Origin: Orenia marismortui DSM 5156
GTDB taxonomy: Bacteria; Bacillota; Halanaerobiia; Halobacteroidales; Halobacteroidaceae
DNA: 38,159 nt
Direction: 5' to 3'
Assembly: GCF_000379025.1 (NCBI RefSeq)
Contig: NZ_KB900622.1
Coordinates: forward strand, 202,642-240,800
Under the pieces are notes generated by a model that worked only from the letters and a program-made list of their open reading frames with translations, was not told the DNA's origin and searched no databases. A program made the position numbers and the translations under genes. Shown in pieces: positions 2,869 to 22,773 of this stretch. The first letter of the stretch is position 1. Every line of letters starts with the position of its first letter.

Positions 2869-2944
2869 TATCTTGTCTCCTTTCTATTTGCAGGTCACTA
2901 CTCTCTTCCTGTCGAATATTGGTAATAGGAAGGAGGTAATTATA

Positions 2945-3220
2945 TTGGATCTAGAAAAATTAGAAAATCAAATCAAAGAGTATGAAAAAGTTCTTTTACC
3001 TTTAATTAAGGATTGTTTTATCGAAGCTATAGAAAAATTTAAAAAAGATAATCCTGACAATCCTCAAGCAACAATAACTTCTAGTTTTGCAATGCTTAAT
3101 TCTAATCTATCCATCAAACTGGCTCTTTTAATTAATTCAGATATTGATTTAACTGAATTATCTGATGAAGAAAAGGAGCAAATTAGTAAATTAATCAAAA
3201 AAGATTTATTAGGAGTTTAA
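2945..3220 (+). CDS. Small hypothetical protein, opposite strand to the early genes
   Basis: A TTG start at 2945 behind a strong AGGAAGGAGG site gives a 91-residue, helical acidic protein (begins MDLEKLENQIKEYEKVLLP). The frame is open further upstream, but that part is antisense to the ORF6N gene. It is the only rightward gene in the leftward block and its 3' end overlaps the small gene on the other strand by about 12 bases. The family is unknown. An isolated, separately transcribed gene in a phage-like element may be cargo or a small accessory factor of the recombinase; this is speculation. Confidence 0.6.
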   Translation: MDLEKLENQIKEYEKVLLPLIKDCFIEAIEKFKKDNPDNPQATITSSFAMLNSNLSIKLALLINSDIDLTELSDEEKEQISKLIKKDLLGV

Positions 3221-3364
3221 CTTTTCTCTTTGATACATTTCTTTAATAGTTTTTTTACTCTCTTTTGCTATTTTGGTTGTATCATTTAGCTGTTCTGGAA
3301 CTCGCCCTTCCAGTTCAGCCACTCTCTTTTCTAAATCTGAGATCTTCTTCTCTAATTCACTCAT
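3209..3364 (-). CDS. Hypothetical 51-aa coiled-coil protein
   Basis: ATG at 3364 with GGGGGTGAG upstream; the protein starts MSELEKKISDLEKRVAELEG, giving clear heptads over the first 22 residues, then a charged helix. It has no membrane segment, so it is not an obvious holin. It follows the Cro-like gene by 45 bases and is probably co-transcribed with it. Confidence 0.55.
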   Translation of the reverse strand: MSELEKKISDLEKRVAELEGRVPEQLNDTTKIAKESKKTIKEMYQREKLNS

Positions 3365-11617: not shown

Positions 11618-12649
11618 CTATTTATTATTTAATCTATTTTGAACTTGCAAATGCTCTTTATAGCTTTCGGTAAATCTATGCTTTCCATCTGTTGTCAATA
11701 CATAATATAAATAATTTGTTTCTTTAGGGTCTAAAGCTGATTTTATAGCTTCAATACCTGGATTATTAATAGGACCTGGCGGTAAACCATAATTTTTATA
11801 AGTGTTATAAGGTGTATCTACCTTAAGATCACTATACAATAATCTACTCTTTCGTTTTGATAGTGAATATTGGACTGTTGCATCTAATTGTAGCTTCATA
11901 TTTTTATTCAACCTATTATAAATTACACTGGCAACTAGTGGACCCTCTTGATCTAATTTGGACTCTGCTTGAATTAAAGATGCAATAGTTATAATTTCTT
12001 CTAAATTATACTTGCTTTCTTTAATCTCATCTTTTAATAAAGAAATTTTTCTTTCAAATTCTTTTAGCATAATATCAATTATTTCTTCTTCATTAGCACC
12101 ATAAGGAATCTGATAGGTTTCTGGGAAGAGAAAACCTTCAAGATTATATTTAACCTTTGGATTTGATTTTATAAATACCACTTCTTTATTTTTAGCTAAA
12201 CTCAAAAATTTCTCCTCGTCTAATTCATGCTTAGCTAATACCTGTCCAATTTCTTCTATAGTTTTTCCTTCTGGAATTGTAATACTATAAGTTGCAACTT
12301 GTCCTTTAACTAACTTCTCTGCAATTTCAGTTGCCGGCATTTTAGAATTTAATCTATAATATCCAGCCTGTATCTCAGTTGCTAATCCCTTTAATTTAAT
12401 ATAAAATTTGAAGGCCATAGGGCTACGAATCAACTGATTTTCATATAATTTATTGCTAACCCTAACTACGGAGGAACCAGGCTCAACTTCTATAACCTTA
12501 TCTTCTGATTTCAAAGTATTTACTGGACCTAATAATCGATCTACATAACTAAACAAGCCCCAATTCATCATAAATATTATAGCTATTATGATAAGATATT
12601 TTCTTCGTCTTTTGACTGTGTTTTCAATCTCTTCTTTATTTCCTATCAT
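11618..12649 (-). CDS. mltG: Endolytic murein transglycosylase
   Basis: A 343-residue YceG-family protein. A membrane anchor at residues 17-37 follows a basic cytoplasmic tail; an LysM-like region (IEVEPGSSVVRVSNKL) comes next and then the catalytic domain, with ASLIQAES carrying the catalytic Glu (E229), and LPPGPINNPG near the end. MltG cuts nascent glycan strands and sets their length. In B. subtilis the homologue yrrL sits at the same place upstream of trmR. It begins at ATG with AGGAGGAT. Confidence 0.93.
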   Translation of the reverse strand: MIGNKEEIENTVKRRRKYLIIIAIIFMMNWGLFSYVDRLLGPVNTLKSEDKVIEVEPGSSVVRVSNKLYENQLIRSPMAFKFYIKLKGLATEIQAGYYRLNSKMPATEIAEKLVKGQVATYSITIPEGKTIEEIGQVLAKHELDEEKFLSLAKNKEVVFIKSNPKVKYNLEGFLFPETYQIPYGANEEEIIDIMLKEFERKISLLKDEIKESKYNLEEIITIASLIQAESKLDQEGPLVASVIYNRLNKNMKLQLDATVQYSLSKRKSRLLYSDLKVDTPYNTYKNYGLPPGPINNPGIEAIKSALDPKETNYLYYVLTTDGKHRFTESYKEHLQVQNRLNNK

Positions 12650-12728
12650 CGCTTATCCTCCTAGCTTATAAATATTTAGCAATTAAAAACTACGGGCTAA
12701 AAATGATCCAATCTAATTTCCCTACTCT

Positions 12729-12757
12729 ATTATAAACAATCTCATTTCATTTATCAA
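12729..12757 (-). promoter_or_regulatory. SigA promoter of mltG
   Basis: TTGATA (12757-12752), 17-base spacer, TATAAT (12734-12729) on the minus strand, about 80 bases before the mltG start. One mismatch from consensus in the -35. Confidence 0.7.
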
Positions 12758-12981
12758 CAAAAGAAATATTCACTAATAATCAAGTTATCAATTAAATAGC
12801 AAACAATAAAGGTTTTTTTCCAAAAATGTCTAATTAAATTAATAAACTAAGATATTTTCACCTTTTAACACAATAGAAAATATAATACAGACGGAAATTA
12901 TTGCTACACTTTTTTATATCATAAAAATAGACTCAAAAAAAGATATTACTCTATTGCTAAGCAACTATCTTACTACAATTA

Positions 12982-13009
12982 TTGTCACTATATATAACTT
13001 AGCTATTGT
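12982..13009 (+). promoter_or_regulatory. Candidate promoter of the 13063 gene
   Basis: TTGTCA (12982-12987), 16 bases, TATTGT (13004-13009), some 50 bases ahead of the TTG start. Confidence 0.4.
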
Positions 13010-13062
13010 AACTTATATTAGATTAAAGGTGCTTTTTGATTATTATAAAGGAGGAGGATAAA

Positions 13063-13527
13063 TTGAATAGACCCAAAAATTTTAAATCAAAAGCTTTAGA
13101 AATCTATAATAGTATCAAATCTAGTAAGAACTCTGAGCTTGAAAAAGCTATTAAAAAAGCTGTTGAGAAACAAAACTTTAAAAATCACGAAGAAAAAGAA
13201 GAAGAAATCATTAAATTAAGACAACAAGTCAAAGAAATAATAGCAGAGAATAGAAAAAAAGAAGCAAAAATAAATAAAATGTTAGAAATGAATGACCTAG
13301 ATAACTTAGAGGATATTAGAGAAACAATGAAAGAGGATTATGAAGTAGCTACTCCAAAAGAAAGAGAAAGGCTAGCTAATAAAATAATCTTTCTAGCTGA
13401 ATCTATTAAAGATAATGAATTTCTGGCTAAAAAAACCTTAGAACATTTTAATTATTATAGAGAAAAGATGATAACTAGAAACTTAAAAGAAAAAGATATG
13501 GGAAGAAATTTAACTAATATAAATTAA
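13063..13527 (+). CDS. Highly charged coiled-coil protein of unknown function
   Basis: A TTG start at 13063 after AAAGGAGGAGG; the frame stays open upstream, but those codons are the ribosome binding site. The 154-residue product is almost all Lys, Glu, Asn and Ile, predicted long helices with a heptad stretch around residues 55-80, and has no signal peptide or membrane span. It is the only rightward gene between the sigK region and the divergent PBP gene, and interrupts the yrzB-mltG synteny seen in B. subtilis. I do not recognise a family. Confidence 0.65.
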   Translation: MNRPKNFKSKALEIYNSIKSSKNSELEKAIKKAVEKQNFKNHEEKEEEIIKLRQQVKEIIAENRKKEAKINKMLEMNDLDNLEDIRETMKEDYEVATPKERERLANKIIFLAESIKDNEFLAKKTLEHFNYYREKMITRNLKEKDMGRNLTNIN

Positions 13528-13529
13528 AA

Positions 13530-13563
13530 AATAATCGTGCTGTTAACAGCACGATTATTTTTT
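13530..13563. terminator. Bidirectional intrinsic terminator
   Basis: AATAATCGTGCTGTT followed by its exact complement and a T tract on the plus strand, with an A tract on the other side. It serves the convergent genes at 13063-13527 and 13562-13861. Confidence 0.9.
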
Positions 13564-13861
13564 ATGCAATTTCTTCAAGCCGAGTTCCATCTTTAATATG
13601 TATATTAGCACGATCGATTACTGTAATAACTACTGCTTTAAATTCTCTAACTTCGATAATAACAGCCAAATTGTTTTCTTGGTCAATTACTGCAACCTCT
13701 TCTCCTGTATCATTATAGTCTAATAACTTTTTATCAAGACTAAGAATTATTGCAGTAACTAAATTCTGATTAATGTCCCTTTCTTCCATCCGCTTAAGAG
13801 CATGGGTTGTGCTCTCTACTCTAAAATATTTATCATCTAATATACATTCAGTTAATAACAT
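13562..13861 (-). CDS. DUF4258 family protein
   Basis: A 99-residue protein with HALKRMEERDI near residues 20-30 and a YDxTGEEVAV ... VIIEVREFKAVVITVID beta region, the DUF4258 pattern, distantly related to RelE/BECR-like RNases. No antitoxin-like partner is seen next to it, so a toxin role is not supported. It lies between mltG and the DUF1292 gene, where B. subtilis has no gene. Confidence 0.6.
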   Translation of the reverse strand: MLLTECILDDKYFRVESTTHALKRMEERDINQNLVTAIILSLDKKLLDYNDTGEEVAVIDQENNLAVIIEVREFKAVVITVIDRANIHIKDGTRLEEIA

Positions 13862-13964
13862 ATAACCCCCCCTCTTTCAACTACTAAATTACTTACTATA
13901 AGTATTGACAATTAAATCAGATTTTATACTAAAAAACATAGGAGGGATCCTATATTTATATATA

Positions 13965-14243
13965 TTAATCTTCTTTAGCCAGTTCTTCTTGTAATTTAGC
14001 CAACTCTTCTTCATCTATTACAGGTTGATAAACTCTTTTTCCATTTTCGTCATCTGTAGCTTTTAGAGCATAACCTTCTCCATCACCCTCATTATCTTCT
14101 GGTAATAATATTAAATAATCAATATCTTCAATCTCAATTACAGTTACTATTTCATATCTGTATTCTTCGCCATTATATTCTTCTAAAACTACAATTCCTT
14201 CCTCTTCATTCACAATTTTAATTTTGCCTTCTTTTTCTGCCAT
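13965..14243 (-). CDS. yrzB: DUF1292 family protein (YrzB-like)
   Basis: A 92-residue acidic protein with the DUF1292 features: EEGKIKIVNEEEGIVVLEE-type beta hairpins, DYLILLPEDNE in the middle and an EELAKLQEELAKED tail. The start is ATG 14243 behind GAGGAGTG. It follows ruvX as in B. subtilis (ruvX-yrzB). The role is unknown. Confidence 0.85.
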   Translation of the reverse strand: MAEKEGKIKIVNEEEGIVVLEEYNGEEYRYEIVTVIEIEDIDYLILLPEDNEGDGEGYALKATDDENGKRVYQPVIDEEELAKLQEELAKED

Positions 14244-14295
14244 AATAATCACTCCTCATTTTAGTTATTAGCTATTATTTACTAGTTTCAAATTA

Positions 14296-14706
14296 CTAAC
14301 TAATGCTATCTAAATAATTCTGCAAAATGATAACAGCCGCCATCTTATCAATAACTTTTTTCCTCTTTTTCCTGCTCAAATCTGCATTAATTAATGTTCT
14401 TTCAGCAGATACAGTAGATAAACGTTCATCCCAAGTTATCACAGGAAGATCTATTTTATTCTTTAATTCCTCTACAAAATTCAATACTTTTTTAGCTCTA
14501 GGCCCAAGAGATCCATCCATGTTTTTAGGCAAGCCAACTACAATTTTTTCTACATCGTGCTTTTCTATTAAAGATTCTATATAAGCTATATCTTCCCCTA
14601 AACTCTTTGTTTGTATTACTTCTTTTCCCTGTGCTGTCCATCCTAGAGCATCACTTACTGCTACACCTGTTCTTTTATCTCCAACATCTAGTCCCATGAT
14701 CTTCAT
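14296..14706 (-). CDS. ruvX: Putative pre-16S rRNA nuclease / YqgF resolvase fold
   Basis: A 136-residue RuvX/YqgF protein: RNase-H fold with MGLDVGDKRTGVAVSD (first catalytic Asp, residue 7), KIVVGLPKNMDGS, TWDERLST and the C-terminal DKMAAVIILQ segment. The family matures the 5' end of 16S rRNA; the Holliday junction resolvase label is older. It lies 6 bases after the baseplate-J-like gene and appears to be the penultimate gene of a run from ireB. Confidence 0.93.
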   Translation of the reverse strand: MKIMGLDVGDKRTGVAVSDALGWTAQGKEVIQTKSLGEDIAYIESLIEKHDVEKIVVGLPKNMDGSLGPRAKKVLNFVEELKNKIDLPVITWDERLSTVSAERTLINADLSRKKRKKVIDKMAAVIILQNYLDSIS

Positions 14707-14712
14707 TATAAA

Positions 14713-16236
14713 TTACTCCCTTCTATCAGCTGAAACTCCATCTGCATTTATAATCAAATTAATCCCATATTTAAATTGAGGTAGATTAACTTGATTAACA
14801 GGACTTATTTCATAACTATTTACTTCTAGCATATTATCTAATAATTTTCTAGCTTCAGTTACTTTTTTACCAACTATTTGATTAATTATTTCTTCCTTGT
14901 TTATCTTTCCTACAACCTGCCCTATACTCTTAACCTTAAAAGTAATTGTATCATCAGTGATTTGTTCTATATTTATATCTTTAATGGTAATTTGAGGTGT
15001 TTTAAGATTAAATCTATCTTTTAAGCTATCTTTATATAATTTAAATATTAATTTTTTTAATCCTTCTTTTTCTACTGCAAAACCTGAAATTTTTACCTTA
15101 GCTTTTATTCTTAACTTATTTGTCATTTCTCCTAAACTGTTTTCAGCTTGAAGAGTTGGATTATCATACTTTATGTCATCCTTAAAGAATATTAGATCAG
15201 AATTAAACCTGCTTTGTAATTTATCTTCTGCTTTACTTATTATCATCTTTCTAGCATTTTTTAATCCCTGATTTATATCTTTTTGAGCAACTACCTTTAC
15301 CGATTTACTCTTCCCACCTGAAGTAGCTTCAGGATTAACTATATCAACTGGATATTCTTTATTAACAAAATCAACTATTCTGCCCTTACTCACATTAGAG
15401 TATTCACCTTTATTCAGAGCTATAATATCGACCTCAGCCTGTCCAGCTTTTACCCCAACAACCATATCCATAAATTTCTCTACTTGAGCCTGTGGAACAA
15501 CTACTTTCTTTGATGTCTTAAACCTTATATTATTTCTAGTTGCAACAATTGTTCCTTGAGGAATAGTTACATCTTTACGATTACTATTAATCAATGTTAA
15601 AACTCCTGTTGCCCAATCAACTCCCACTTTTTTATTTCCTGTTGTTTCAAAGACCATATCTTCCTCTAAATTTACTTCATTTTTTATCAAAGGTAATAAA
15701 GAATTATGCCAATCTACTGTTTCTAGCTCTTCTACAGCCTTAATTTGACTTATAAGAGTCTTTTCTTTGATAGTAGGTCTTAATTCTACTGTTATTACTG
15801 GGAAAGCAAAATAAATCCAAACTCCTATTAATAATAAAGAAAGAGCTATTGTCATTATGGCTTTATTTCGATGACTCTTTTTAGATTTCTTCCTCGCATT
15901 AGAATACTCATCTAAGGTTAATAATGATTCCCTTTCCTCTTCTTGAATCCCGCCATCACCTAGATTATTTTCAAAATCACTTAATTTTGAATAAACTTCA
16001 AATCCTACTTTAGTTAATACCTTTTTTATCTTCTTAGTCTTAGTAATAAAAACCAGATTTTTACCTGCTTTTTTAGCATAATTTTTAATCAATTCAACAT
16101 TTACCTGCCCTACAAAAACTGGAGAATTTCTATGTACAATTACTACTACTTTATCTACTTTAGCAGATTTTATTTTTTTTAAAAATGAACTTAATGGTTC
16201 ATCAGGATCTATATATATTTTAATATATTTCTCCAT
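14713..16236 (-). CDS. Single-pass membrane protein with a baseplate-J-like ectodomain
   Basis: A 507-residue protein. Residues 1-95 form an alpha/beta cytoplasmic domain (KVDKVVVIVHRNSPVF ... AKKAGKNLVFITKT), a basic linker follows, a membrane span lies at about 126-148, and then a large extracellular part. The ectodomain contains PQGTIVATRNNIRFKT and a VGVKAGQAEVD ... GEYSNVSKGRI stretch, the beta pattern of baseplate J/gp47-like proteins. Chromosomal homologues with this architecture occur in clostridia and are not phage parts. It lies between an FtsA-like gene and ruvX with short gaps, and probably works with the FtsA-like ATPase at the envelope. The role is unknown. Confidence 0.7.
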   Translation of the reverse strand: MEKYIKIYIDPDEPLSSFLKKIKSAKVDKVVVIVHRNSPVFVGQVNVELIKNYAKKAGKNLVFITKTKKIKKVLTKVGFEVYSKLSDFENNLGDGGIQEEERESLLTLDEYSNARKKSKKSHRNKAIMTIALSLLLIGVWIYFAFPVITVELRPTIKEKTLISQIKAVEELETVDWHNSLLPLIKNEVNLEEDMVFETTGNKKVGVDWATGVLTLINSNRKDVTIPQGTIVATRNNIRFKTSKKVVVPQAQVEKFMDMVVGVKAGQAEVDIIALNKGEYSNVSKGRIVDFVNKEYPVDIVNPEATSGGKSKSVKVVAQKDINQGLKNARKMIISKAEDKLQSRFNSDLIFFKDDIKYDNPTLQAENSLGEMTNKLRIKAKVKISGFAVEKEGLKKLIFKLYKDSLKDRFNLKTPQITIKDINIEQITDDTITFKVKSIGQVVGKINKEEIINQIVGKKVTEARKLLDNMLEVNSYEISPVNQVNLPQFKYGINLIINADGVSADRRE

Positions 16237-16248
16237 ACTTATGCCTCC

Positions 16249-17514
16249 TTAACTAACCAAATTATTAATTAATTTATAAAATAAATTACATTCTTTAACC
16301 TCTTCAATCATTGTAGATTGTAATGCCAAACTTTTAGGCGTTACATTCTCTGCTCCTACTAATAACTTTGTATTATCTTCTATGCCTACTATCTGATTTG
16401 CATCTAACAACTTAATTTCTGGCTTTTTAAAAAATGGTAAATCCTCATACATCTTTCTTTGTATAATTCCATCAAATAAACCTTTCAAAGCACTACCTCC
16501 ACCGCATAAATAGATTTTTTGTGGTAATGCTTCACACTTAGCTAAAGATTTTAAGGACAATTCAATTCCTTCATATAACAAATCAAGATCTGCCTTTAAA
16601 ATATCTTTTATTTTCTCTATTGATATCTCTGGATGCTCTAAAGAATAAGCTAATTTTAAATTTTCAGCATCTTCTAAAGTTAAATTTAAACTTCTAGCTA
16701 AACTTTTAGTAAAATCTCTTCCGGCTATACCAAACATTTTAGTCCCTTCTATTCCACCATTTCTTATCAAGGCAATATCTGTTGTCCCTCCCCCAATATC
16801 TATTACAATCGCCCCAAACTCATAAGCTTCATTATTCATAATACTTTTAGCAATAGAAAAAGGTTCAGCTATTACCCCCACAAGATTATATCCTAACCTT
16901 GTAGCCACAGTTTCTAAAGAACCTACATGAACTAAAGGTGCAAAGGTATTAAAAACACTTATTTCTAAATTTTTACCCTGAAATTCTTTAGGATTAGTAA
17001 CCTTATACCCATCAATTTTCATTTCTACAACAGAAGAATTTACTAGTTCAACTTTCACATCTTCTAATCCTATATCTTCCCAAAGTTCTTCCTGAACAGA
17101 TTTTAATGCAATACTTTGTGCTTTTTTAACTAAATTATCAATTTCTTTTCTTTTTATTCTCTTTTTTGGTAAAGGACGCACATAATTAACTGGAGTAATG
17201 ACCCCTTTAACAAACTCTCCTGCAATTCCAATTACCATTTCAGAAGGACTTATCTCTGCCATTTTTTCTGCTTTTTCAATTGCTTTATGGCAAGTCTTAA
17301 TTACTTCCTCTATATTAGATATGGCTCCACCCTCCATATTAGTATAGTCTTGTTTTATCCTTCCATAACCTATTATATTTGAATCACTTCCATCAAATTT
17401 AACTATCATAGCCTTTACAAATTCTGTACCAATATCTAAAGCAACTCGATATTTATCTTCAACTTCTTTATCATTTTTGAATAATTTATTTACTAAAGTT
17501 ATAATAGAAAACAC
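16249..17514 (-). CDS. FtsA/PilM-like actin-family ATPase
   Basis: A 421-residue protein. Actin-fold motifs are present: phosphate 1 ALDIGTEFVKAM (residues 25-36), phosphate 2 IDIGGGTTD (239-247) and the adenosine motif LCGGGSALKG in the last quarter. The region 90-200 corresponds to the SHS2 (1C) domain of FtsA. The C-terminus (CNLFYKLINNLVS) could be an amphipathic membrane-targeting helix. It is a paralogue-type protein outside the division cluster, next to a bitopic membrane protein, reminiscent of PilM-PilN pairing. The cell biology is unknown. Confidence 0.75.
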   Translation of the reverse strand: MFSIITLVNKLFKNDKEVEDKYRVALDIGTEFVKAMIVKFDGSDSNIIGYGRIKQDYTNMEGGAISNIEEVIKTCHKAIEKAEKMAEISPSEMVIGIAGEFVKGVITPVNYVRPLPKKRIKRKEIDNLVKKAQSIALKSVQEELWEDIGLEDVKVELVNSSVVEMKIDGYKVTNPKEFQGKNLEISVFNTFAPLVHVGSLETVATRLGYNLVGVIAEPFSIAKSIMNNEAYEFGAIVIDIGGGTTDIALIRNGGIEGTKMFGIAGRDFTKSLARSLNLTLEDAENLKLAYSLEHPEISIEKIKDILKADLDLLYEGIELSLKSLAKCEALPQKIYLCGGGSALKGLFDGIIQRKMYEDLPFFKKPEIKLLDANQIVGIEDNTKLLVGAENVTPKSLALQSTMIEEVKECNLFYKLINNLVS

Positions 17515-17582
17515 CCCCTGATATTACAAAATTATCCATTAAGGAGCTAATTCCTTTTTTCAACTGTAAATTTATCTAAATT

Positions 17583-19745
17583 TTAATTTAATCTTATCCG
17601 CTTTAATACTAAATACAATAAAGAGAAAATAGGAAATAAAAGTAAAGTAGCTGCTGCAACAATACCTGAATCATTAACAATCATAGTTACTATACTTCCA
17701 ATTACTAAACCTCTTAATGCTGCACTCAAATTAGGATAAGTCTCAATTATAGCTTTAATAACACCTCTAGGTCTTTTGAATAAAATAATTAAAATAATAA
17801 CAAATGATAATACCACTCTAGTCCATATAGTCCATCTTAATAATTTTAAGTTCATACTGAATTTACGATAGATTATAGTTAATACTGCAGACAAACCTCC
17901 CCTTTTAATTGCTGATAAACTCCGACCTAAATGAGTTTGGTTATTGGTATTTACTACTGTATCTATTAGAACAACTGAAATAATTATTAGGATTAAAATA
18001 CTTATCAATTTTAATATTAACCTCATATTTAAATTATAACCCTGCAAATAGAAATATACAACACTACAAACTACTGTAGCTGTAATTAGACCACCAAAAT
18101 TTGCTCCTAACTGAGGGTAACCTACAGTTAAGATTAAAAAAATAAATAAAACTACTAATAACTTATTAGAAATTCTATCTGTAAATTCTTTAATAATTGT
18201 CAAACTTATTAAACCAGTACCAATAATTATCCCCATAAATTCATTTCCAATTCCATAATATCTTGCACCAATTACTGGAGAATATCCTAATACAGATAAT
18301 TTCATTAGTTTAGTTTTGGTCCACACATCAATTATTAATAAAATGAAATTAACTAGAGATACTACAAGAATTGGAATAAGTTCATTATTACTAACCTTTA
18401 ACAGATAGTAAGTTAGAAGAAAACTAGTCACTAATATTCCTATAATGACTAAAATTAAATTAAAACCGATATAAATTCTAGAAACTAAAAATAAAGCTGG
18501 TATCCATAATAAAGATATCAATAAATAATTTGAAATTACTTTTAAAATTCTAGGTAAATCTTTATAAAGTATAATACTTCCTACTAAAAACAGAGTAATA
18601 ATTTGTAATAATATAAACCCTTTAATTAAGATAGGCCTCCAAGAAAAGGTCTTTTGTATCTGTTTATCTAAACTAATTAGATAATCTAATGATTTACTAG
18701 AAGGAATTGCTTCTACTACACTACCAGTAAACTCCTTCTCTCTTCCTCCTAAATAATTATAGATAGTTGGCGCAATATCTAGATTAGTTATTATTCCCTG
18801 ACGTTTAGTTGTATTGGATTTTAATAAACCAGCGATTTTAGGTCCAATTAGTATAGATAATGTTAACTTTTGACCTCTCAATCTACCAGACTTAGATGTA
18901 GTAGGAACTACAAAGAATAAATAATCCTCTCTAAAATCTAATTTAGCTGCTATTTTACCTAATAACTTATCTACTCTAGTAATGGAATTTTCTTTTTCTA
19001 CTTTAAATTTATCTGCTAATAATGAACTTTTAACAGCTTCCATCCGGGATGTATCACCAGATTCAATAATTATTAGGTCATTTTTAGGTAGTAATTCATT
19101 AAATTTTTTCAAGAGATAATCTTGGTTAGTTATATAGCCAGAGGGATGTTGATCAGATCGCAAAGCCATCTTATAACCAACATCCCCCTCAAAAATTAAA
19201 CCATATTTATTTATAGCAATCATTCCTATATGTCTACGTGATTGTTGCCAAATATCAGCATTACCCAATACAGCTATGCTAGAATTAGATTGATATAAAG
19301 CATCTGCTAAAGCTCCAACTTTTGCATCATAATTACTACTTTGATTAGTAGAAATTATTCTAGAAAGCTCTATATTAATTACCATTGCTCTATTATCTAG
19401 TTTTTTAATTCTTCTATTATACAAATCACTAATACTTATACCTTTATACTTTTCATTTAAATTAAAGTTTAAATAGGCTGAAACACCTGCTCTAGCTCTA
19501 TCTCCTGCTCCAATAGTTAAATAAGCATCTTTAGGTTCTAATGCTCCTGAAGTTCTAGTATTAGTTAATGCAATAGCTCCTTTTTTTATTAATTTATCTA
19601 AATTAGGAGTGCTACTGTTCTTTATTTCCGATAAATCAACTCCATCCATCACAAATAAAACAAAGTGTCTATCTTTAGCCACTACATTTGATGAAATAAA
19701 ACATAAGAAAATTAAAAAAGATAATAGACAAATGACTTTTTTCAT
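17583..19745 (-). CDS. Alkaline-phosphatase-fold polytopic membrane protein
   Basis: A 720-residue protein. It has a signal peptide (1-23), then an extracytoplasmic alkaline-phosphatase-superfamily-like domain to about residue 350 (FVLFVMDGVDLSE, TPNLDKLIKKGA, and RQGIITNLDIAPTIYNYLGG), followed by about ten membrane segments with GARYYGIGNEFMG and QLGANFGG between them. Homologues in clostridia and actinobacteria share the IGNE-type motif. The usual DHG metal motif is not evident: the equivalent strand reads VVPTTSKSGRLRG, so hydrolase activity is doubtful. It is the first gene after ireB. Confidence 0.65.
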   Translation of the reverse strand: MKKVICLLSFLIFLCFISSNVVAKDRHFVLFVMDGVDLSEIKNSSTPNLDKLIKKGAIALTNTRTSGALEPKDAYLTIGAGDRARAGVSAYLNFNLNEKYKGISISDLYNRRIKKLDNRAMVINIELSRIISTNQSSNYDAKVGALADALYQSNSSIAVLGNADIWQQSRRHIGMIAINKYGLIFEGDVGYKMALRSDQHPSGYITNQDYLLKKFNELLPKNDLIIIESGDTSRMEAVKSSLLADKFKVEKENSITRVDKLLGKIAAKLDFREDYLFFVVPTTSKSGRLRGQKLTLSILIGPKIAGLLKSNTTKRQGIITNLDIAPTIYNYLGGREKEFTGSVVEAIPSSKSLDYLISLDKQIQKTFSWRPILIKGFILLQIITLFLVGSIILYKDLPRILKVISNYLLISLLWIPALFLVSRIYIGFNLILVIIGILVTSFLLTYYLLKVSNNELIPILVVSLVNFILLIIDVWTKTKLMKLSVLGYSPVIGARYYGIGNEFMGIIIGTGLISLTIIKEFTDRISNKLLVVLFIFLILTVGYPQLGANFGGLITATVVCSVVYFYLQGYNLNMRLILKLISILILIIISVVLIDTVVNTNNQTHLGRSLSAIKRGGLSAVLTIIYRKFSMNLKLLRWTIWTRVVLSFVIILIILFKRPRGVIKAIIETYPNLSAALRGLVIGSIVTMIVNDSGIVAAATLLLFPIFSLLYLVLKRIRLN

Positions 19746-19762
19746 TCAATCACTCCACAATA

Positions 19763-20020
19763 TTACTTCAAATAGCTTTTAACTAACTCTTCAATAATTT
19801 CATCACGTTCAAATTTTCTCATTTTACTACGGGCTTCTTTATGACTTGTAATATAAGCAGGATCACCAGAAAGTATATATCCTACAATTTGATCAATGGG
19901 ATTATATCCTTTTTCTTCTAAAGCTTTATAGACATCTTTTAAAGCTCTAGCAACCTCACTATCATCTTCATTATTGACTCTAAACATCATAGTTTTATCA
20001 AAATTATTCATTGTTTTCAC
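19763..20020 (-). CDS. ireB: IreB family regulatory phosphoprotein
   Basis: An 85-residue DUF965 protein with the family core [33 protein letters not shown] and [17 protein letters not shown]. In Enterococcus faecalis IreB is phosphorylated on threonines by the PASTA kinase IreK and affects cell-wall stress resistance. It lies downstream of alaS, as in B. subtilis (yrzL), but is separated from it by a terminator. An internal ATG 6 bases later (MNNFDK) is an equally good start. Confidence 0.93.
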
Positions 20021-20107
20021 CTCAATACATGTTAATAGTTTTCCTATTATAGCTATTCTTTATACATCTTAATTTTCCTCTATATATAGTTATTATACCA
20101 TTAAAAA

Positions 20108-20148
20108 GAAAATATAAGCAGGGAGCTCCCTACTTATATTTTCACTAA
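20108..20148 (-). terminator. Intrinsic terminator of alaS
   Basis: On the minus strand GAAAATATAAGTAGGGAG pairs with CTCCCTGCTTATATTTTC with one G-U-type mismatch, followed by TTTTT (20107-20103). It comes right after the alaS stop and isolates alaS from ireB. Confidence 0.85.
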
Positions 20149-20151
20149 AAT

Positions 20152-22773
20152 TTATTTATCTAATATAAGCTCTTTAGCTTTTTCTAAAGCATCATTAACT
20201 TTATCTGGTTGACTACCACCAGCTTGTGCCATATCTGGGCGACCTCCACCGCCACCACCAGCAACTTTTGCAACTTCACGAATAATATTTCCTGCATGAT
20301 ATCCTTCTTTAACTAAATCCTCAGTTACTACAGCAATGAAGATTACTTTATCTTCTGATTTAGAAGCTAAAACAACAATACCTGAGTCTAACTTCTCTTT
20401 AAGACTATCTCCCATCTTTCTCAACCCATCAGCATCTATTCCGTCAATACTATGTAAGATAGTTTTAACACCATTCAACTCTTCAGCTTCAGAGATTAAA
20501 TCTCCTGATTGAGAAGAAGCCAATTTATCTTTAAGGCTTGTAATCTCCTTCTCTAACTCTTTAATATGACCTTGTAAGCTTTCTACTTTGCTTACAACTT
20601 CGTGAGGAGAAGACTTTAACTTATCAGCAATCTTAGTAATAGTAGCTTCTTGTTTTTTCACATAATCTAAAGCCTCATGGCCAGTTACGGCTTCAATTCT
20701 TCTAACTCCTGCTGCTATTCCTGATTCATTGATAATCTTAAATAAACCTATCTCTCCTGTTGATCTAACATGGGTTCCACCACATAATTCAATACTATAA
20801 TCTCCAGCAGTTACAACCCTTACTTCTTCACCATATTTCTCACCGAATAAGGCCATAGCTCCCATCTCTTTAGCAGCGTTAATAGACATTTCTGTAGCAT
20901 CTACCCTTAAATTAGCTAAGATTTGTTCATTTACTCTAGTTTCTATCTTCTCTAACTCATCTTCTTTAACCCCTTCAAAGTGGGAGAAGTCAAAACGCAT
21001 TCTAGTAGGTGTAACCAATGAACCTGACTGATTTACATGATCACCCAAGAATTCTTTTAAAGCTTTGTGTAATAAATGAGTAGCAGTATGATTACGAGCA
21101 GTAGCAGTTCTTAGCTCTTTACTAACTATAGCTTGAACCTGATCTCCCACTTTCAGTTTCCCTTCTTCTACTTCAATTTCATGAACAATCATCTCTGCAA
21201 CCTCACGTGTATCTAATACTCTTGATTGAGTAGTCGTATTGATAATAATTCCCTTATCTCCAACTTGTCCACCACCTTCAGAGTAAAAAGGTGTCTTAGC
21301 TAAAACAAGCTGAGCCTTATCACCAACAGCTATCTCTTCTACTACTTCTTGCTCTTTAATAATACTTAAAACTTCAGTTTCAACTTCAAATTCTCCATAG
21401 CCAACAAACTCACTCTGTCCAATCTCTTCACGAAGTGATTTAAAGAGCTCTAATTCACCATGGCCTTGATCATAATCTTCTCTAGCAGACCTAGCTCTCT
21501 GACGTTGTTCATCCATAGCTTCTTCAAATCCAGCATGATCAATTTTAAAATTTCTCTCAGCTGCTATCTCTTCGGTTAATTCCTTAGGAAAACCATAAGT
21601 ATCATAAAGAGTAAATACCTTAGAACCTGGAATCTTATTTAAACCTTTTTCTTCTAATTCATCTATAATTTCTTCTAAAATATCAATTCCTTGTTCTAAA
21701 GTTTCTTGAAATCTAAGCTCTTCTTGTTTGATGATCTTCTTAATCTGCTCTTCATTATCCACTAGCTGTGAATAATGACCTCCCATTACTTCTACTACTA
21801 TTGGTACAATTGTATGTAGAAAAGGAACTTCCAAGTTTAATACCTTAGCATAACGAACTGCTCTTCTTAATATTCTTCTTACTACATAACCTCGCCCTTC
21901 ATTAGAAGGTAATGCACCATCAGCAATAGCAAAACTAATACTTCGGATATGATCAGCAATTACTTTTAAAGCCATATCAATCTCTGGTGAATCTCCATAT
22001 TCAACTCCAGCACTCTTAGCTATGTAATTAATCATTGGCATAAATAAATCTGTTTCAAAATTGCTTGGCGCATCCTGTAATAAAGAAACAATTCTTTCTA
22101 GTCCCATTCCCGTATCAATATTCTTATTTGGCAGATCTAAATATTCTCCGTCTTCAGTCTTATTATATTGGGTAAATACTAAATTCCAAATCTCTAAATA
22201 ACGATCACAGTCACACCCTAACTTACAATCATCACTACAACCATAATCTGCCCCTCTATCATAATGGATCTCAGAACATGGGCCACAAGGACCTGTTCCT
22301 ATCTCCCAAAAGTTTTCATCTTTATCCATTCTAACAATTTTATCTTTACTAATCCCTACTTCATTGTGCCAAATATCAAAAGCACGATCATCATCTTTAT
22401 AAATAGATATCCAAAATTTATCTTGATCTAAAGCAATTACATCAACTAAAAATTCATAAGCCCATTTGATAGCATCTTCTTTAAAGTAATCACCGAAAGA
22501 AAAATTACCTAACATTTCAAAAAAAGTATGATGCCTAGCAGTCTTACCTACATTTTCAATATCATTAGTTCTGATACATTTCTGAGATGTACTAACCCGT
22601 CTCTTAGGTGGAATTGCACTCCCATTAAAATAATCTTTAAAAGGTGCCATCCCTGCATTAATCCAAAGTAAAGTTGGATCATTCTGTGGCACTAACGGTG
22701 CACTAGGCAATATTTTGTGTCCTTTACTTTCAAAAAAATCTAAAAACTTTTGACGTATTTCACTACTATTCAT
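20152..22773 (-). CDS. alaS: Alanyl-tRNA synthetase
   Basis: An 873-residue, full-length enzyme. The class II catalytic core has PLVPQNDPTLLWINAGM, RRVSTSQKCIRTNDIENVG and a GRGYVVRRILRRAVRYAK motif; the editing domain carries HTATHLLHKAL and CGGTHV zinc/editing residues; the coiled coil and C-Ala domain end in GGGGGGRPDMAQAGG. It charges tRNA-Ala and hydrolyses mischarged Ser/Gly. No T-box leader is visible in the 200 bases upstream, unlike many Firmicutes. The start is ATG after GGGAGGG. Confidence 0.97.
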   Translation of the reverse strand: MNSSEIRQKFLDFFESKGHKILPSAPLVPQNDPTLLWINAGMAPFKDYFNGSAIPPKRRVSTSQKCIRTNDIENVGKTARHHTFFEMLGNFSFGDYFKEDAIKWAYEFLVDVIALDQDKFWISIYKDDDRAFDIWHNEVGISKDKIVRMDKDENFWEIGTGPCGPCSEIHYDRGADYGCSDDCKLGCDCDRYLEIWNLVFTQYNKTEDGEYLDLPNKNIDTGMGLERIVSLLQDAPSNFETDLFMPMINYIAKSAGVEYGDSPEIDMALKVIADHIRSISFAIADGALPSNEGRGYVVRRILRRAVRYAKVLNLEVPFLHTIVPIVVEVMGGHYSQLVDNEEQIKKIIKQEELRFQETLEQGIDILEEIIDELEEKGLNKIPGSKVFTLYDTYGFPKELTEEIAAERNFKIDHAGFEEAMDEQRQRARSAREDYDQGHGELELFKSLREEIGQSEFVGYGEFEVETEVLSIIKEQEVVEEIAVGDKAQLVLAKTPFYSEGGGQVGDKGIIINTTTQSRVLDTREVAEMIVHEIEVEEGKLKVGDQVQAIVSKELRTATARNHTATHLLHKALKEFLGDHVNQSGSLVTPTRMRFDFSHFEGVKEDELEKIETRVNEQILANLRVDATEMSINAAKEMGAMALFGEKYGEEVRVVTAGDYSIELCGGTHVRSTGEIGLFKIINESGIAAGVRRIEAVTGHEALDYVKKQEATITKIADKLKSSPHEVVSKVESLQGHIKELEKEITSLKDKLASSQSGDLISEAEELNGVKTILHSIDGIDADGLRKMGDSLKEKLDSGIVVLASKSEDKVIFIAVVTEDLVKEGYHAGNIIREVAKVAGGGGGGRPDMAQAGGSQPDKVNDALEKAKELILDK

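Follow-up and report, generated by a model that had tools for sequence, protein, structure and literature searches.

What do the three genes between ireB and ruvX in Orenia marismortui do, and do their products work together? The genes lie in a 38,159-nucleotide stretch of contig NZ_KB900622.1 of strain DSM 5156 (hereafter "the window"), where they encode an alkaline-phosphatase-fold membrane protein (AlkP), an FtsA-like ATPase (FtsAL), and a bitopic baseplate-J-like protein (BPJ). Like all of the window features given below, they are on the minus strand, in the order ireB (19763..20020), AlkP (17583..19745; 720 aa), FtsAL (16249..17514; 421 aa), BPJ (14713..16236; 507 aa), and ruvX (14296..14706). 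The open reading frames, together with Pfam and NCBIfam scores well over the cutoffs for IreB and RuvX, confirm the preliminary description of three same-strand genes between these neighbors. The gaps are 17 nt (ireB-AlkP), 68 nt (AlkP-FtsAL), 12 nt (FtsAL-BPJ), and 6 nt (BPJ-ruvX), and several junctions of the locus overlap in relatives' genomes, which suggests a single transcript; ireB is probably cotranscribed with the trio. Comparisons of related genomes gave dN/dS ratios of 0.10 to 0.20 for AlkP, 0.06 to 0.11 for FtsAL, and 0.13 to 0.19 for BPJ, so that all three genes are under purifying selection. Among named organisms, Orenia and other Halobacteroidaceae are the nearest relatives. Downstream, a DUF4258 protein (13562-13861) is 97 to 99% identical to its versions in genomes G001 and G002, while most neighboring genes are at 60 to 87%; this is unusually strong conservation for a small uncharacterized protein.

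We examined the distribution of the three families in 59 genomes of the class and in a phylum sample of 149 genomes, which were also scored for SpoIVA (TIGR02836) as a marker for core sporulation genes, that is, for gene content and not for observed spores. Within the class, AlkP was found in 26 genomes, BPJ in 21, and FtsAL in 18, and in all 18 FtsAL genomes the genes are contiguous in the order AlkP-FtsAL-BPJ, so that the arrangement goes beyond chance. Across the phylum sample, AlkP was found in 100 genomes, BPJ in 24 (a count that leaves out two further weak, short matches), and FtsAL in three, one of them the genome of the window. The distribution is nested: FtsAL occurs only with BPJ, to which it is adjacent in 20 of 20 genomes, and BPJ occurs almost only with AlkP. 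AlkP and BPJ are each also found alone in many genomes, and AlkP is often distant from the other two genes, though AlkP and BPJ are neighbors again in two other families (L169 and L170). Two genomes of a distant family (G101 and G172) have the order ireB-FtsAL-BPJ-aldo/keto reductase-ruvX, with AlkP elsewhere, beside a GT4-family-like gene. In many Clostridia, ruvX is separated from BPJ or AlkP by an aldo/keto reductase that carries a 4Fe-4S domain at its C terminus (L117:8180-9130; equivalents in L159-L178).

Independent occurrence of the three families, without a conserved neighborhood, had been named beforehand as an observation that would count against a joint machine. AlkP and BPJ are indeed often alone, but their distribution is nested and the gene neighborhood is conserved. 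The same observations bear on the possibility that three unrelated genes with no shared function merely happen to sit at a conserved housekeeping locus, alaS-ireB-ruvX-mltG. The independence of AlkP and BPJ in many genomes would fit such an account, which we nevertheless consider quite improbable given the nesting, the invariable adjacency of FtsAL and BPJ (the distant family included), and the genome G017, in which the trio is intact beside ruvX despite its separation from alaS and ireB. The preliminary description had pointed to ireB, a gene of cell wall kinase signaling, upstream of the trio; except for adjacency, nothing was found to tie the trio to IreK/IreB signaling, and G017 has no ireB next to the trio.

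The trio had further been described as inserted between ireB and ruvX. Genomes without SpoIVA and with a readable locus mostly have ireB followed directly by ruvX (four have unrelated genes between), and within the class this adjacency looks like loss of the trio genes. In one genome (G016), AlkP and BPJ are kept, and all that is left of ftsAL between them is its two ends, the middle being absent (L226, about 2930-3300). Insertion is therefore doubtful. Partial sets include AlkP-BPJ without FtsAL (G199), AlkP alone (five genomes of family f2), and a shortened BPJ alone (G023). In the complete genome G014, a frameshift interrupts ftsAL (L038:8846-10083, minus strand), reflecting either recent loss or a sequencing error.

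AlkP consists of an N-terminal signal or transmembrane segment, an alkaline-phosphatase-fold domain (about residues 25 to 348; 18702..19673), and a C-terminal membrane domain (residues 373 to 716; 17598..18629) with about 11 transmembrane helices, as judged from an AF2 model (pLDDT 83), fold matches, and conservation among 95 sequences. It matched no Pfam or NCBIfam model, and its profile matched no PDB sequence. The predicted model aligned with phosphoglycerate mutases (VIA Z 24.4 over about 244 to 251 residues at 2.8 Å, in a list that spans the alkaline-phosphatase part only) and by Foldseek with LtaS, LtaP, and YejM. By these model comparisons, the N-terminal domain has an alkaline-phosphatase fold, in agreement with the preliminary description. 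The residues fixed in 95 of 95 relatives (G493, R495, Y497, G498, G500, N501, E502, H605, R627, K628, W641, N691, and D692) fall chiefly within the C-terminal membrane domain, which holds most of the invariant polar residues, in the motifs GAR-x-YGxGNE (493 to 502), H605, RK (627 and 628), W641, and ND (691 and 692). In the alkaline-phosphatase domain, column counts in the same set showed the first metal Asp kept in 73 of 93 sequences and a variable nucleophile position; no conserved Asp-His metal motif was found at the usual place in the 95 relatives, and a PTP-type sequence stands at residues 281 to 283. Since the invariant residues lie mostly in the membrane domain and the Asp-His motif is missing, the alkaline-phosphatase domain may be a degenerate enzyme, with the chemistry perhaps carried out by the membrane part. 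YejM is likewise a degenerate member of the alkaline phosphatase superfamily.

AlkP shares with YejM/PbgA, LtaS, and the GPI ethanolamine-phosphate transferases an alkaline-phosphatase-fold domain joined to transmembrane helices. It differs from them in having its own invariant membrane-domain motifs and no sequence match to any PDB chain, and its domain order is the reverse of that of LtaS and YejM; the GPI ethanolamine-phosphate transferases have the same order as AlkP. A positive-inside analysis of AlkP loop charges was ambiguous and did not settle the topology. In two genomes, G055 (C1:769326-773741) and G171 (C13:53924-58315), a single open frame of ~1,490 aa contains two AlkP copies, apparently fused in tandem.

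The preliminary reading of BPJ as a bitopic baseplate-J-like protein also held. The model and sequence give it a single transmembrane helix (residues 121 to 144; 15805..15876) between a cytoplasmic alpha/beta domain (residues 1 to 92 by AF2 secondary structure; 15961..16236), proposed here as the part that would bind FtsAL, and an extracytoplasmic baseplate-J-like region. The Pfam Baseplate_J family (PF04865) matched 100 residues of this region (residues 209 to 308; 15313..15612) at 21.2 bits, against a cutoff of 21.1, and Foldseek matches to phage baseplate proteins had E values down to 7e-8; the BPJ profile gave only chance-level matches to PDB sequences. BPJ thus shares with phage baseplate J/gp47 a family match at threshold and the fold over part of the outer region, whereas it differs in being membrane anchored, in having a cytoplasmic N-terminal domain, and in being encoded at a chromosomal housekeeping locus. 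At no locus seen did it lie among phage tail genes; its neighbors were housekeeping genes throughout.

FtsAL is an actin-fold ATPase, as had been recognized: it matched Pfam FtsA (6e-18), with an FtsA-type match over residues 24 to 297, and its ATP-binding (phosphate and adenosine) motifs are intact and conserved. The SHS2 (1C) subdomain gave a weak, partial Pfam match (E = 0.015), and a profile alignment to an FtsA structure spans the region. The possible membrane-targeting tail noted earlier is present as an amphipathic C-terminal tail, a feature that may be shared with FtsA, but is restricted to the window's own family; an N-terminal amphipathic segment is kept more widely. FtsAL scored 130.2 bits against the FtsA equivalog model (TIGR01174; cutoff, 175.85) and 40.2 bits against PilM (TIGR01175; cutoff, 133). 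In a tree in which some long branches meet, leaving the branching order among groups unsure, FtsAL formed a separate clade of 18 rows (support, 100/100), apart from canonical FtsA (99/97), from PilM, and from a 720-aa FtsA-like protein of the same genome group. On these scores and this placement, FtsAL is neither FtsA nor PilM; it also differs from FtsA in being encoded beside BPJ. The 720-aa protein (L216:879-3035, minus strand, on contig C2 of the window's genome) is distinct from both FtsA and FtsAL and occurs in most of the sampled Halanaerobiia, with and without SpoIVA alike.

These results weigh on two accounts of FtsAL. It might be a specialized FtsA for asymmetric septation, with BPJ and AlkP as membrane partners in a second divisome-like apparatus, as its conserved actin-ATPase motifs, its FtsA-type matches, and the presence of a separate canonical FtsA in the genome would allow. 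That account is improbable, in our view, for a protein that falls under the FtsA equivalog cutoff and outside the FtsA clade, that most sporulators lack (it occurs in 3 of 149 genomes), and that has been lost from genomes in which BPJ and AlkP persist. The second account takes FtsAL as the PilM and BPJ as the PilN of a type IV pilus-like platform. The topology follows the same logic, with an actin-like protein in the cytoplasm and, encoded next to it, a protein that spans the membrane once, and PilM is a distant relative of FtsAL. We rejected pilus membership as very improbable on scores, clade, and neighbors: the PilM score is far under the cutoff, a separate PilM-type protein falls in another clade, the outer part of BPJ is baseplate-J-like, and no pil genes (pilN or pilO) were found among the open reading frames of window positions 12000 to 22000. 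The likeness to PilM-PilN pointed out earlier therefore stands as an analogy (40 bits against 133, and a clade of its own) and not as membership.

The preliminary description missed a link to endospore formation. SpoIVA was found in 27 of the 59 class genomes, namely, all 26 with AlkP and G023, which has BPJ. Within the class, AlkP was thus present in 26 of 27 SpoIVA-positive genomes and in 0 of 32 SpoIVA-negative genomes, and none of the three families was found in the latter. In the phylum sample the counts were 100 of 128 and 0 of 21, respectively, and all 24 BPJ genomes had both SpoIVA and AlkP. By family, AlkP was present in 54 of 71 SpoIVA-positive families compared with 0 of 12 SpoIVA-negative families (Fisher P = 5e-7, from counts made by hand from tables and with kinship above the family level remaining in the test). 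On an AlaS tree, three of three well-supported independent contrasts agreed when AlkP or BPJ was scored, but with only three contrasts (sign test P = 0.25) this phylogenetic control is underpowered. The association holds in the window's phylum and not in the Actinomycetota, where AlkP was found in 47 of 119 genomes; five AlkP-positive genomes of Actinomycetota type that were tested all lacked SpoIVA, so AlkP itself is not spore specific. The restriction of the trio, within the class, to genomes with endospore formation genes suggests a role in building the spore; the link is correlational. Acetohalobium is listed as asporogenous by Galperin and colleagues, though it lacks only part of the sporulation set (PMC3533761). 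Sporulation gene lists have been built largely from Bacillus subtilis genes (PMC3533761), and sporulation families exclusive to other Bacillota would therefore be missed.

A less specific explanation is that the trio is an ordinary set for handling envelope polymers, acting on the vegetative wall or a surface glycan, and that its loss in nonsporulators reflects general gene loss or shared ancestry. The losses are indeed confined to a few branches in the tree of the class; AlkP is widespread in Actinomycetota, and 39 of 80 named loci have a glycosyltransferase of the GT4 family near AlkP, usually as the next gene. Set against this are the absence of AlkP from all 21 SpoIVA-negative genomes of the phylum sample and its presence in 100 of 128 SpoIVA-positive genomes from many families, as well as the persistence of other FtsA/PilM-type envelope genes in SpoIVA-negative genomes; we regard an ordinary envelope role as unlikely but deserving serious consideration. 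Halanaerobiales are diderm (PMC5007114). Dependence on an outer membrane was considered as well and is disfavored, because the trio is missing from SpoIVA-negative Halanaerobiia and AlkP is found in many other Bacillota.

At a distance of 61 nt upstream of ireB, the window has a sigma-H-like promoter (AGAGGAAAA-N11-AAAGAAT; 20055..20081) that agrees with the consensus at 13 of 13 positions, and several relatives have it too. Such a promoter would permit expression as cells enter stationary phase or sporulation, without proving it. Sigma-H drives division genes in B. subtilis, which we count in favor of the divisome-like account. The site is also found upstream of ireB in some SpoIVA-negative genomes that lack the trio and is therefore a general feature of the ireB promoter; this lack of specificity for module genomes fits an ordinary envelope set. 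Scans for sigma E, G, and K promoters gave no convincing signal, and a sigma-F-like near match overlaps the sigma-H-like site in the window's family.

Our preferred reading, which we hold tentatively and at a little less than an even chance, is that the trio forms a trans-envelope module used in sporulation by endospore-forming Halanaerobiia and a few other Bacillota. It draws on the gene order, the nested distribution, the co-occurrence with SpoIVA, the ATPase motifs, the predicted folds, and the purifying selection; the protein contacts, substrate, site, and timing of action are what we infer. AlkP would be the core, with its alkaline-phosphatase-fold domain outside the membrane and its ~11-helix domain, carrying the invariant polar motifs, handling a lipid-linked envelope glycan or polymer. 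BPJ is predicted to span the membrane once, placing an oligomer-prone baseplate-J-like domain outside, possibly beside AlkP, and a small alpha/beta domain inside the cell. FtsAL, seated on the cytoplasmic face of the membrane, would bind that inner domain, position the complex (the polar septum and the forespore membrane being examples of possible sites), and organize the extracytoplasmic activity through BPJ. BPJ and AlkP would function without FtsAL, and AlkP would function without either; the nested losses suggest this division into a core (AlkP), an adaptor (BPJ), and an optional organizer (FtsAL). The module is favored by the AlkP-SpoIVA co-occurrence, the FtsAL-BPJ adjacency, the nested losses, the GT4 neighbors, and the sigma-H-like promoter, and it is opposed by AlkP in Actinomycetota without SpoIVA, the few contrasts, the unspecific sigma-H-like site, and the frequent distance of AlkP from its partners. 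The most specific version of the module, a new sporulation machine in which an actin-like ATPase drives, via a bitopic baseplate-J-like ring protein, a degenerate-alkaline-phosphatase, polymer-handling membrane enzyme outside the cytoplasm, is rather unlikely as it stands.

Each of the three proteins belongs to a known superfamily, with FtsAL falling short of both the FtsA and the PilM models and AlkP having no curated family. The suggestion of an uncharacterized envelope machine thus finds partial support in the conserved neighborhood, in the fact that FtsAL is never without BPJ, and in the lack of a curated AlkP family. Literature searches on FtsA-like proteins with baseplate J, or with sporulation in Firmicutes, found nothing relevant, and we found no description of such a set, an actin-like ATPase with a bitopic partner and an envelope enzyme. 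FtsAL would add a fourth lineage of FtsA/PilM type to cells in which FtsA, PilM, and the 720-aa FtsA-like protein are already present. AlkP, which has no Pfam or NCBIfam model despite its presence in 100 of 128 SpoIVA-positive and 0 of 21 SpoIVA-negative genomes, stands out as a strong candidate for a role in the spore or envelope that has been overlooked; this family gains partners from the trio, and a role in sporulation is directly testable in culturable spore formers.
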